In this document: positions 5,325 to 15,327 of the stretch, in pieces
Layout: the number at the start of each line of letters is the position of its first letter
Position numbering within the stretch: the stretch's first letter is position 1
Source of the DNA: Microcaldota archaeon
Lineage (GTDB): Archaea; Micrarchaeota; Micrarchaeia; Micrarchaeales; Micrarchaeaceae
Direction of reading: 5' to 3'
DNA: 37,750 nucleotides
Assembly: GCA_021811605.1 (NCBI GenBank)
Contig: JAJZNR010000024.1
Span: forward strand, 1-37,750
Notes under the pieces: generated by a model
Told to the model about the DNA's origin: nothing
The model's database searches: none
The model's input: the letters and a program-made list of their open reading frames with translations, nothing else
Program-made: the position numbers and the translations under genes

Positions 5325-5423
5325 GGTTCTTCCCTTCTTTCTTTCTTTCCCTTTGTTTTGATCTAGCTGCAGGCTCACGCCTGCCTTTTTATATCTGTTT
5401 TTCCCATTGAATACGGTGCTTTT

Positions 5424-6116
5424 ACGATAATCTGCGGCGGAGACGAGGCTGGAAGAGGGGCGGTGCTCGGCCCTCTCGTGATATCCCTTGTAGCTGTAAA
5501 AAGCGCGAACGAAAAGAAGCTCGCCGACATAGGTGTTCGTGACTCTAAGCTGCTCACCAGGGAGCGCCGCGAGGACCTCTTCAAGAAAATCCAGGGCGCC
5601 GCTGTAGAGGTGCTGGTCGACAGGATAACCCCGGAAGAGATAAACAACGCGATGCTCAACAAGATATCGCTCAACGAGCTCGAAGCCGTGCGCTTCGCCC
5701 GCCTCTTTGAGAGAATGCAGAACCACGCGTCGACGCTCTATCTCGACTCGCCCGACGTGGTGGCGCACAAGTTCGGCATGAGGGTGAATATCTACGCCAC
5801 GAAGCCCACGACGGTGGACGGGATAAAGATGTCGAAGGCGAAGGGATCAACCAAGATAATAGCGGAGCACAAGGCGGACGCCCGCTACCCGGTGGTGAGC
5901 GCCGCAAGCATAATCGCCAAAGTGACGAGGGATGCCGCAGTGAGCGACCTTCGCAAGGAACTTGGTGTTGATATAGGTTCCGGCTATCCGTCGGACCAGA
6001 CGACGATAGATGCAGTGAGGGCGAACCTGAAGGATCCATCGTTCAGGAAGCACGTAAGGGAGTACTGGGTCACCGTAGACGGGATAAAACAGTCGCGGAT
6101 GGAGGCGTTCATCTAG
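5424..6116 (+). CDS. rnhB: Ribonuclease HII; probable non-canonical ACG start
   Basis: TIICGGDEAGRGAVLGPLVIS contains the RNase HII DEAGRG motif; also YLDSPDVVAHKF, AEHKADARYPVVSAASIIAKVTRD, GSGYPSDQTT. The motif lies upstream of the first canonical start (GTG 5463). Confidence 0.9.
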   Translation, partial: TIICGGDEAGRGAVLGPLVISLVAVKSANEKKLADIGVRDSKLLTRERREDLFKKIQGAAVEVLVDRITPEEINNAMLNKISLNELEAVRFARLFERMQNHASTLYLDSPDVVAHKFGMRVNIYATKPTTVDGIKMSKAKGSTKIIAEHKADARYPVVSAASIIAKVTRDAAVSDLRKELGVDIGSGYPSDQTTIDAVRANLKDPSFRKHVREYWVTVDGIKQSRMEAFI

Positions 6117-9790: not shown

Positions 9791-12088
9791 ATGGAGGGAA
9801 ATTCGAATCCTAGGTTCGTGATAAAGAGGGATAAGTCGCAGCTGCCTTTCGACTCTGCTAAAATCGAGACCGCAGTATTCAAGGCTTACGGCAACGTATA
9901 CCTGAACAAGGAAGAAGAGGAAAACCACGAGCGCGCCCGTGCCGCCACGCATCAGGTTATCGAAGAGCTGAAGAAGGTGAACAAGGAAGCCCTCGGAGTC
10001 GAGGAGATACAGGATATCGTGGAGATGATCCTGATGAAGAACGATCCGGAGGTCGCAAAAGCGTACATACTGTACAGGAACAAGCACGCGGAGATACGCG
10101 CCTTCAGAACATCGCTCGGAATACCGCACGACGACCTGAAAGTCCCTATCAATTCACTCATCATCCTCGCGGCAAGATACCTGCTCAAGAATGCAGACGG
10201 CAAGATTATCGAATCGCCGAAACAGCTCTTCCAGAGGGTGGCGAGGGCCATCTCTTCAGCCGAGAGCAAGTTCGGGAAGGGAGAGACGGAGGTTTCGCGC
10301 ATCGAACAGGAGTTCTACGACGCAATGACTTCATTCAAGTTCATGCCGAATTCTCCTACACTCATGAACGCCGGCACAAAAGACGGGCAGCTGAGCGCGT
10401 GCTTCGTCATTCCAGTCGGCGATTCCATAGAGGAGATATTCGACGCCATAAAGTGGCAGGCGATGATACACAAGACCGGCGGCGGAACGGGCTTCGCATT
10501 CTCGCGCCTGCGTCCGTCCAACGACTTCGTCCGCTCCACGAGCGGAGTCGCATCCGGCCCTGTATCATTCATGAAGATATTCGACGCGGCCACGGAGGAG
10601 ATAAAGCAGGGCGGGAAGCGCCGCGGGGCAAACATGGGCATCCTCAGGGTGGACCACCCGAACATACTTGACTTCATAGTCCTCAAGGAGAACGAGGGGA
10701 CGCTACGGAACTTCAACATATCCGTCGGTGTGACTGACGAGTTTATGAAGTCAGTGAAGGAGAACAAGGATTACATACTTAAGAATCCTCGCGGCTCCGC
10801 GCCGATGGGAAAGCTCAATGCAAAGGCGGTGTGGAACCTCATAGTAACGATGGCGTGGAAGACCGGCGACCCGGGTCTGGTCTTCCTTGACAGGATAAAC
10901 GCAAGCTATGCAAACCCGGTCCCGAAGTACGGACCTGTCGAGTCGACTAACCCGTGCGGAGAACAACCGCTCTATCCGTTCGACTCGTGCAACCTCGGTT
11001 CGATCAACCTCGCGAAGATGGTGAAGAAGACAGACCACCACTACGAAGTGGATTGGGATGAACTGAGAAGGGTTACGAGGCTCGGTGTCAGATTCCTCGA
11101 CAATGTGGTTGAGCAGAACGTATATCCGCTGAAGCAGATCGACCAAGTGAGCCGCGCTATAAGAAGGATAGGCCTCGGAGTCATGGGCTGGGCTGACATG
11201 CTCATCAAGCTCGGGATAAAGTACGACAGCAACGAGGCGCTCATGCTCGGTGAGAAGGTGATGCAGTTCATAACCGACAACGGGCGAAAGATGAGCGAGG
11301 AGCTGGCAGAGGAAAGGGGCGCCTTCCCCGAATTCCCGAACAGCGTGTGGGCGCGCCTCGGCTTCAAGCCTCTCAGGAACTCCACAATCACGACAATCGC
11401 GCCTACTGGAACCATCAGCATAATATCCGGAGGGACTTCGCAGGGTATCGAACCCATATTCTCTGTCGTGTACATGAGGAACGTGCGCGACACTATCGGC
11501 TCGAACCTCATAGAGGTGAACAACGAGTTCGAGCAGTATGCGCTCGAGGAAGGCTTCTATTCCGAGGAGTTGATGCAGAAGATGGCGAACAAGGTCTCGA
11601 TACAGGACATGGAGGAGGTGCCCGAAAAGATACGCAGCCTATTCGTCACCGCGTTCGATATAGCCCCGGAGTGGCACGTCAAGATGCAGGCCGTGTTCCA
11701 GAAATACACCGACAACGGTGTGTCCAAGACTATCAACTTCCCGAGCTTCGCTACACCGGCGGACATTGAGCACGCTTACGAGCTGGCATGGGATCTCGGC
11801 TGCAAGGGAATAACCGTCTACAGGGACCAGAGCAAGTCCATCCAGGTGCTGCAGCCGGTAACGAGGGAGGGGTCGCAGAAGGGTATCGACAGCATCAAGA
11901 AGGCGCACGCGGAGCGCGAGAAGAACTCCGGAAAACAGACCGTCAATCTCGCAACTGTGCAGTCTGGAGCCCAGTCATACACCTTCATTCCCGACAAGGC
12001 GACAAAGTGCCCGGAGTGCGGAGGGACGATGATTGCCGGCTCTGGTTGTTTCACATGCCCGAAATGTTCGTACAGCAAGTGTGAATGA
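9791..12088 (+). CDS. nrdJ: Adenosylcobalamin-dependent (class II) ribonucleoside-diphosphate reductase
   Basis: ATP-cone FVIKRDKSQLPFDSAKIETAVFKAYG; NSPTLMNAG, GGGTGFAFSRLRP, STNPCGEQPL, TIAPTGTISIISGGTSQGIEP; C-terminal zinc ribbon CPECGGTMIAGSGCFTCPKC. Confidence 0.95.
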   Translation: MEGNSNPRFVIKRDKSQLPFDSAKIETAVFKAYGNVYLNKEEEENHERARAATHQVIEELKKVNKEALGVEEIQDIVEMILMKNDPEVAKAYILYRNKHAEIRAFRTSLGIPHDDLKVPINSLIILAARYLLKNADGKIIESPKQLFQRVARAISSAESKFGKGETEVSRIEQEFYDAMTSFKFMPNSPTLMNAGTKDGQLSACFVIPVGDSIEEIFDAIKWQAMIHKTGGGTGFAFSRLRPSNDFVRSTSGVASGPVSFMKIFDAATEEIKQGGKRRGANMGILRVDHPNILDFIVLKENEGTLRNFNISVGVTDEFMKSVKENKDYILKNPRGSAPMGKLNAKAVWNLIVTMAWKTGDPGLVFLDRINASYANPVPKYGPVESTNPCGEQPLYPFDSCNLGSINLAKMVKKTDHHYEVDWDELRRVTRLGVRFLDNVVEQNVYPLKQIDQVSRAIRRIGLGVMGWADMLIKLGIKYDSNEALMLGEKVMQFITDNGRKMSEELAEERGAFPEFPNSVWARLGFKPLRNSTITTIAPTGTISIISGGTSQGIEPIFSVVYMRNVRDTIGSNLIEVNNEFEQYALEEGFYSEELMQKMANKVSIQDMEEVPEKIRSLFVTAFDIAPEWHVKMQAVFQKYTDNGVSKTINFPSFATPADIEHAYELAWDLGCKGITVYRDQSKSIQVLQPVTREGSQKGIDSIKKAHAEREKNSGKQTVNLATVQSGAQSYTFIPDKATKCPECGGTMIAGSGCFTCPKCSYSKCE

Positions 12089-13440: not shown

Positions 13441-13581
13441 AGAACCACGTCTTTATTCTTTCAGAACCCTTCTCTCGGGAAGCTATTTAAACTGTGCTGT
13501 TGCCTTCACCGGGTCCGGCTACCCAAAATCAAATAGCCTTTTATACTTTACTTTTTACGGTATATTATTGTTGGTGGTGGC

Positions 13582-13773
13582 ACGAGGGCGAAAACGATTG
13601 CAGCCGCGTTACTCATCCTTATACCGTTTGCTGTCTACTACGATATCCCTTTCTACAACGTAGTCAACCCAGTATGGGGCGGTCTCCCGTTCTATTACTG
13701 GTTCCAGATTGTCATGCTTCCGATAAGTGCGGCGCTGTTCCTGGTGGCGGCGCTGCTGATTGACATGAAATGA
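13582..13773 (+). CDS. DUF3311-like small membrane protein; probable non-canonical ACG start
   Basis: Frame ending TGA 13771-13773: TRAKTIAAALLILIPFAVYYDIPFYNVVNPVWGGLPFYYWFQIVMLPISAALFLVAALLIDMK*. Absent from the ORF track because no in-frame ATG/GTG/TTG precedes it; located directly upstream of the SSS permease. Confidence 0.8.
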   Translation, partial: TRAKTIAAALLILIPFAVYYDIPFYNVVNPVWGGLPFYYWFQIVMLPISAALFLVAALLIDMK

Positions 13774-13785
13774 ATAGGTGACCCC

Positions 13786-15327
13786 ATGCTTCTCGACATT
13801 TTTGGAATCGCGGCTTTTGTCATACTCTTCATAGTGTTCTCGTTAATCGCTTATTACGGCAGCAGGTTCAGGAAAGGCGACCTCAACAAACTCTACGAAT
13901 GGGGCCTCGCCGGCCGCAAGCTCGGCCCGTGGCTCGCCTGGTTCCTGATCGGCGCTGACGTATTCACCGCCTACACCTTCGTAGCGGTCCCGTCCCTTGC
14001 ATACGCAAAGGGCTCTGCAGCCTTCTTCGCAGTGCCGTACGTCGCGATAGTGTTCGCCATAGCAATGCTGACCATGCCGCGCCTATGGACTATAGCGAAG
14101 AAACGCGGATATGTGACCGCCTCGGACTTTGTCCGCGACAGGTTCAATAGCAGGACCCTGTCAGTAGTGGTGGCCATAACCGGAATAGTTGCCATACTCC
14201 CGTACATAGCTCTCCAGATAGCCGGTATGCAGGCAGTTCTGACAATCATGCTGTACGGAACCGCAGACGCGGCAACGGTTTCGGAGATTGCGCTGGTGAT
14301 ATCGTTCATAGTGCTCGCGGCGACCACGTTCGCAAGCGGCCTCCGCGGCGTTACGCTAGGCTCGGTTTTCAAGGATGTGCTGATATTCCTCACAGTGATA
14401 GCCGTGGTAATCGCAGGAGTCACGGCGTACGGAGGTTTCGGCTCCGCGTTCGCGAACATAGTAAGCGCGAAAGGGGCAGCGGCAGCGGCGCCGTACTCAA
14501 GCCTGCCCTCCGCGGCTGTGCCCGGGTTCTTCACCTTGTTCATAGGCAGCGCCTTCGCCCTCTACCTGTACCCGCACATAATAAACGGAAGCCTTTCCGC
14601 GAACAACAAGAAGACGCTAAGGAGGAGCCTCGCCGCCCTGCCGATATACTCGATAGGGCTCGCGTTCCTCGCGCTCTTCGGAATACTCATATACGCGGTA
14701 CAGCCAGCTCTCACGATAGTGCAGAGCACAGGAAACGGCCTGCTCACTGTGCCTGCCCTCATAGTCACGTTAATGCCTGGCTGGCTGGCAGGCATCTGCC
14801 TGCTCGGAGTGTTTGTAGGAGGCATGGTCCCGGCCGCGCTCATGGCAATAGCCGGGGCGAACCTGGTGTCGCGCAACATAGTCAAGGAGTTCAAGCCGAA
14901 GATCAAGCCGGCAACCGAGACAAGGATAGCGAAGTGGGTCTCTGTAGCGCTAAAGTTCATAGCCCTGGGATTCATCTTCCTCACTCCGCTCACGCTCGCG
15001 ATACAGCTGCAGCTGCTCGGCGGTATAATCATACTGCAGATACTTCCCGCAGTGTTCATGGCGCTCTTCACCAACAGGCTCGACTGGAAGGGCGTGCTCC
15101 TTGGCTGGATTGTCGGCATCGTTTCTGGGATATACCTCGTGATACTGGCGAACCCCTCAGGGGCGCTCTCGGTGTCGAACACCGCTTCGCCGTGGGGCGC
15201 AATCTATATAGGCGTGGTTTCCGTAGTGCTGAACATAATCGTCGCGGTCCTCGGCTCCCTCGTGGTCTCGTGGACAGGCACGTTCAGGAAAGGCCTGATA
15301 AAGGAGAGCGAGTTCGTCTCCGCCTGA
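13786..15327 (+). CDS. Sodium:solute symporter (SSS) family permease
   Basis: 513 aa, multi-TM, YEWGLAGRKLGPWLAWFLIGADVFTAYTFVAVPSLAY; GGTG-N5-ATG. Confidence 0.9.
   Translation: MLLDIFGIAAFVILFIVFSLIAYYGSRFRKGDLNKLYEWGLAGRKLGPWLAWFLIGADVFTAYTFVAVPSLAYAKGSAAFFAVPYVAIVFAIAMLTMPRLWTIAKKRGYVTASDFVRDRFNSRTLSVVVAITGIVAILPYIALQIAGMQAVLTIMLYGTADAATVSEIALVISFIVLAATTFASGLRGVTLGSVFKDVLIFLTVIAVVIAGVTAYGGFGSAFANIVSAKGAAAAAPYSSLPSAAVPGFFTLFIGSAFALYLYPHIINGSLSANNKKTLRRSLAALPIYSIGLAFLALFGILIYAVQPALTIVQSTGNGLLTVPALIVTLMPGWLAGICLLGVFVGGMVPAALMAIAGANLVSRNIVKEFKPKIKPATETRIAKWVSVALKFIALGFIFLTPLTLAIQLQLLGGIIILQILPAVFMALFTNRLDWKGVLLGWIVGIVSGIYLVILANPSGALSVSNTASPWGAIYIGVVSVVLNIIVAVLGSLVVSWTGTFRKGLIKESEFVSA

Follow-up and report, generated by a model that had tools for sequence, protein, structure and literature searches.

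The locus considered here raises the question of where translation begins in a conserved gene that offers no usual start codon. The window, meaning the whole stretch of 37,750 nucleotides that was analyzed, is part of contig C9 in draft genome G000 (705 kb, 62.8% complete, 31 contigs), and its host is a Micrarchaeaceae (DPANN) archaeon, from a family of tiny archaea living in acid habitats, whose relatives carry the names Micrarchaeota or Micrarchaeaceae. On the + strand, a DUF3311 frame is open from TAG 13534-13536 to TGA 13771-13773; the in-frame codons that follow the TAG are CCT TTT ATA CTT TAC TTT TTA CGG TAT ATT ATT GTT GGT GGT GGC ACG AGG GCG AAA ACG ATT. The first ATG, GTG or TTG of the frame is ATG 13714, which lies deep in the protein (..QIVMLP), near its C-terminus. 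The first-pass annotation was thus correct in stating that none of these three codons occurs between TAG 13534 and the conserved region, and a canonical archaeal start (ATG/GTG/TTG) is absent at or before that region.

The frame matches DUF3311 (PF11755) with 38.2 bits as a whole and 35.7 bits for 13585-13773, against a cut-off of 30; read from ACG 13582, the gene (13582-13773, + strand) would specify a small membrane protein of 63 aa with 62–77% identity to genus relatives. Directly downstream, a GGTG at 13777-13780 (+ strand) stands 5 nt before ATG 13786 of a permease gene of the SSS family (PF00474; 13786-15327, + strand), whose nearest NCBIfam model is the MctP monocarboxylate permease, with a score below its cut-off. 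The two Pfam matches bear out the earlier description of a DUF3311-like protein directly ahead of an SSS permease. As in the known DUF3311/MctP-type SSS permease pair, the gene for the small membrane protein directly precedes that of the permease; the difference is that here the start codon of the small gene, and of that gene only, is unusual. Kin of the pair (L023, L032-L034 and L036, compared with window positions 13786-15327) are also seen in Thermoplasmata and Thermocladium, and the sequences suggest that the pair may have been transferred between acid-dwelling archaea.

Ahead of DUF3311, GGTG (13573-13576), five nucleotides and ACG (13582-13584, + strand) are present just as first described, along with a second, overlapping GGTG at 13576-13579. 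The resulting GGTGGTG (13573-13579, + strand) is complementary to the 16S 3' tail (..GGATCACCTCC) seen in relative G003, and with the tail taken from this relative DUF3311 is classed as a Shine-Dalgarno-led gene, GGTG-N5 occupying 13573-13581. Further upstream lies a TATA-box-like TTTATA (13540-13545, + strand), with 36 nt between it and ACG 13582; in the same genome, the corresponding distance from TATA box to ACG is 30 nt for RNase HII, 31 nt for a PyrB paralogue and 36 nt for the TATA-binding protein (TBP). Three points thus speak for ACG as the start of DUF3311: the Shine-Dalgarno spacing of the lineage, the distance from TATA box to start found in the other ACG genes, and the length of the N-terminus, as ACG 13582 gives 12 residues before LIPF, inside the range of the homologues.

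DUF3311 in relatives and the competing starts

DUF3311 is found in 23 of the 86 family genomes, and in an alignment of 38 distinct sequences the 37 others have an in-frame ATG, GTG or TTG at a fitting place, leaving the window's copy as the only one without; no ACG start is seen among these 37 homologues, and in genus relatives the start is ATG, mostly without GGTG in front. As all other aligned homologues have a usual start, DUF3311 alone proves little, being an isolated oddity that a base error could explain. That the start codon has been lost compared with relatives might also mean that the gene is a decaying pseudogene, or is translated only by way of reinitiation or an internal ATG. This is very improbable, as the frame is intact and, against the nearest relative, dN is ~0.08 and dS ~2.5, indicating that the gene is kept under purifying selection and is not decaying; moreover, in-frame ATGs occur only near the C-terminus, and the nearest identified upstream gene on the same strand ends at 12088, too far away for reinitiation.

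If the sequence or its assembly is in error, or if the start was lost very recently, the true or ancestral start would be an ATG in position 13582, or GTG 13577-13579 (+ strand), which is in the wrong frame and would need one inserted base before 13585. In addition to the isolation of the case among the aligned homologues, the draft is fragmentary, so that one wrong base would create it, and a frameshift of such a kind occurs in draft G008; GTG 13577 also lies 31 nt after the TATA-like box, the same distance as the ATG of relative L003. An indel that would connect GTG 13577 with the MARG start found in relative L006 is weakened by the RAKT motif (13585 on), which is conserved in frame and common to the window's DUF3311 and homologues L012 and L030, placing the beginning of the coding region at or before 13585. 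The remainder of the gene is intact and its dN low, and GGTG-N5-ACG recurs in the TBP, RNase HII and PyrB genes of the same genome, and in TBP over 17 genera, so that no error is needed. On balance, an error or recent loss is unlikely here, though it keeps some weight.

A leaderless start, the alternative named in the first-pass annotation, would lie at ATT 13567-13569 (+ strand) or at 13564, the TATA-like box being ~21 nt upstream. In the alignment, ATT 13567 falls on the ATG of homologue L012 with no gap needed, and that ATG is itself ~20 nt downstream of its TATA box; leaderless archaeal mRNAs are, however, described with AUG, GUG or UUG (PMC7531240), and it is ACG that has a strong GGTG at the usual distance of the lineage, ATT 13567 being without GGTG-N5 in front. 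No convincing ATT start was seen in the survey described below, which covered GGTG-led starts only. A leaderless ATT start is given a low probability. Initiation at ACG 13582, as a sporadic instance of a lineage trait, is the reading that the sequence evidence renders probable. The evidence at DUF3311 is weaker than the first-pass annotation implied, and it is through the start-region survey and analogy with the TBP gene that an ACG start there appears likely.

ACG as a start codon of the lineage

Start regions of conserved genes were surveyed in four genomes of the genus (contig C9, nearly all of G003, ~530 kb of G008 and 100 kb of G010), and in total ~496 of the 705 kb of the window's genome were read, for conserved genes only. 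The codon after GGTG-N5 in these regions is ATG in 78 cases, TTG in 21, GTG in 10 and ACG in six, with GGTG-N5-ATG being the dominant GGTG start arrangement. ACG in this position is found in 6 of 172 start regions and in 5 of 802 gene interiors, a 5.1-fold enrichment that is confined to N5 (the counts at spacers 3, 4, 6 and 7 are 0, 0, 1 and 0); Fisher's test among non-canonical codons gives p = 5e-5, or 0.003 if only the four real starts are counted. Of the six matches, one in G003 (7526) was dismissed because the ACG directly precedes an ATG and one in G008 (10241) because of an ATG five codons upstream; the remaining four comprise RNase HII, DUF3311 and two orthologues, one in G003 and one in G008, that encode a single-repeat TBP (PF00352). 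The TBP gene and the PyrB paralogue of the window's genome, both with ACG, came from another 348 kb of that genome. Counted over the whole 148-kb contig without restriction to start regions, ACG is in no excess behind GGTG-N5 (8 cases, 0.43-fold), a count without power, as even ATG is barely enriched (1.09-fold) in this GC-rich contig; the comparison within conserved-gene start regions replaced it.

Most of the conserved frames without a usual start were rejected as candidates, being rRNA or antisense frames, alignments extending upstream of the real start (aIF1, RNase P p29 and Rpo7), or frameshifts such as that in the PAC2-like gene of draft G008.

TBP carries the strongest evidence. Among 70 family loci, which come mostly from drafts related by descent and are not independent counts, 14 have an ACG that immediately follows an in-frame stop, 23 more have no ATG, GTG or TTG between the upstream stop and the ACG, and in 5 more the 10 codons ahead of the ACG include no usual one; altogether, 42 loci in 17 of 26 genera have ACG without a usual start nearby upstream. 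The other loci comprise 13 in which ACG is accompanied by a usual codon at most 10 codons upstream, and 15 with codons other than ACG (mostly ATG, with one ATA and one GCG). Outgroup TBP genes (30 loci, mostly from the sister family) start with ATG or GTG, none with ACG. The codon at GGTG-N5 in TBP is ACG 44 times, ATG four times, and ATA and GCG once each; it is never ACA, ACC or ACT, although ACG makes up only 26–32% of threonine codons, implying that the TBP codon is kept as ACG and not as threonine.

The TBP gene of G076 (L296) reads TTTAAA..GGTGGTTCA ACG, and the first usual codon met upstream is 44 codons away. G076 is a single contig of 989,838 bp, matching in length the chromosome of the cultured Ca. 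Micrarchaeum harzensis, which was sequenced by PacBio plus Illumina (PMC8975820); if this identification is right, the genome is a closed one and assembly error is ruled out for TBP. A usual start in another frame followed by a frameshift might be proposed instead, as a GTG lies inside GGTG, 8 nt before the ACG. In 78 genes an ordinary ATG follows GGTG at the identical N5 spacing, ACG is retained in several TBP loci that have a different motif instead of GGTG, and no conserved shift site is present; this alternative to an ACG start is thus extremely improbable.

Use of ACG as a start codon in Micrarchaeaceae is strongly supported by these sequence comparisons, mainly by TBP with its ATG/GTG outgroup. 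The suggestion in the first-pass annotation that ACG is a regularly used start stands as far as its use in the lineage is concerned, and fails in the word regularly: candidates in the window's genome are TBP, RNase HII, DUF3311 and the PyrB paralogue, ~4 of roughly 400 conserved genes tested.

Archaeal TBP normally has two repeats. Most family genomes have two short TBP genes with one TBP repeat each, of about 105–135 aa (L165-L194 and L265-L304), and in the sister family the number of such single-repeat genes is one or two. In the TBP gene of G054 (L266), any usual start codon is absent and GCG follows GGTG-N5, perhaps as another unusual start, perhaps through an error.

Other unusual starts and a possible mechanism

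In the RNase HII gene of the window (5424-6116, + strand), GGTG 5415-5418 (+ strand) is followed by N5 and ACG 5424, with no usual start before GTG 5463, which is inside the conserved domain; the arrangement that the earlier reading had recognized in both this gene and DUF3311 is real. The codon aligned to this ACG in genus relatives is ATG (six), ATA (two) or ATC (three), and the relatives with ATA or ATC retain GGTG-N5 and offer no usual start from the preceding stop to the conserved part. Among 74 family loci, again mostly from related drafts, 31 lack a usual codon at -12 to +2 relative to the conserved start, and 24 of these are GGTG-N5-ATA or -ATC, some with an in-frame stop directly before the ATA; ACG is seen in the window's genome only. 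An unusual start is therefore conserved in two other genes of the lineage, as ACG in TBP and as ATA or ATC in RNase HII.

Further instances are found in MerA (mercury(II) reductase, TIGR02053), where the ATA of GGTG-N5-ATA immediately follows an in-frame stop in two species (L217, G000:C9:124235-125647; L218, G001:C68), and in MetRS (L365-L369), which has a CTG start in four of five close relatives (G000, G003, G012 and G006, with a stop directly before the CTG in G003) and ATG in G013. Together, MerA and MetRS imply that the slot 5–6 nt after GGTG tolerates several near-cognate codons, and since it also takes ATA, ATC and CTG, what is seen is a relaxed start choice after GGTG-N5 and not a matter of ACG alone. 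The PyrB-like gene (L385, G000:C2 near 10240) has GGTG-N5-ACG, with ATG in its nearest relatives; an upstream ATG there overlaps a TATA-box-like TATAAATA.

In the mechanism proposed for DUF3311, the simplest account of such starts, a short mRNA leader would carry GGTGGTG, whose pairing with the 16S rRNA tail would bring ACG into the P site; the ordinary initiator tRNA (CAU) could then read the codon with one middle-base mismatch and insert methionine. The 16S 3' tail complementary to GGTG and a normal initiator tRNA are both found in relative G003: aragorn gives one initiator-like Met tRNA with anticodon CAU, and no elongator Met tRNA, so that the scan is incomplete; read by eye from the sequence, the initiator-like tRNA has A1-U72 and the GGG/CCC stem. 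Micrarchaeaceae would by the same rule use ACG, AUA, AUC and CUG as starts when these stand 5–6 nt after GGTG, in few genes and over long evolutionary times, as in TBP with ACG, RNase HII with AUA/AUC and MetRS with CUG. In Pyrococcus and Sulfolobus, aIF1 destabilizes complexes on non-AUG codons (PMC6237735), and as the factor acts against such codons, tolerance here would have to come from a strong Shine-Dalgarno element, altered factors or an accepted low yield.

A more tentative proposal is that start choice in Micrarchaeaceae is relaxed or specially tuned, with ACG as a stable, selected start of TBP serving as a brake or sensor, AUA/AUC and CUG acting likewise for RNase HII and MetRS, and DUF3311 having newly joined. 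It is speculation that TBP is held low or regulated through its ACG start. Among known systems, E. coli infC and pcnB have rare AUU starts; the likeness lies in a near-cognate start that is conserved in a gene of core information processing, whereas here the codon is ACG, with a middle-base mismatch, in archaea, in a TBP gene conserved over the family. Initiation from all 64 codons has reportedly been measured in E. coli by Hecht et al. in 2017, and near-cognate initiation behind a Shine-Dalgarno element is common to both cases, although reporters were measured there and the starts here are natural and evolutionarily conserved. ACG is absent from the starts of NCBI table 11, and it is plausible that standard gene callers miss such genes, as the first-pass annotation had suggested; annotation of Micrarchaeaceae may truncate or drop genes that start with ACG, ATA or ATC. 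The starts listed for archaea in a review are AUG, GUG and UUG (PMC7531240), and the Shine-Dalgarno-led initiation it describes resembles the present case in the pairing of GGTG with 16S rRNA, the spacing of ~5 nt and the ordinary initiator tRNA, and differs in that ACG (also AUA, AUC and CUG) is outside the listed three. Among the open-access papers searched, none was found on ACG starts in archaea or on Micrarchaeota start codons.

Non-AUG starts are known as rare exceptions, and here ACG appears to be fixed family-wide in the gene of a general transcription factor, cultured species included, making the fidelity of archaeal start-codon choice (aIF1 and aIF2) testable in a natural system. As a separate observation, the aIF1 (SUI1-like) frame continues ahead of its ATG, open and conserved, for ~40 codons that include no usual start (G000:C9:89374-89806; G010:C11), a stretch that is perhaps an overlapping gene.
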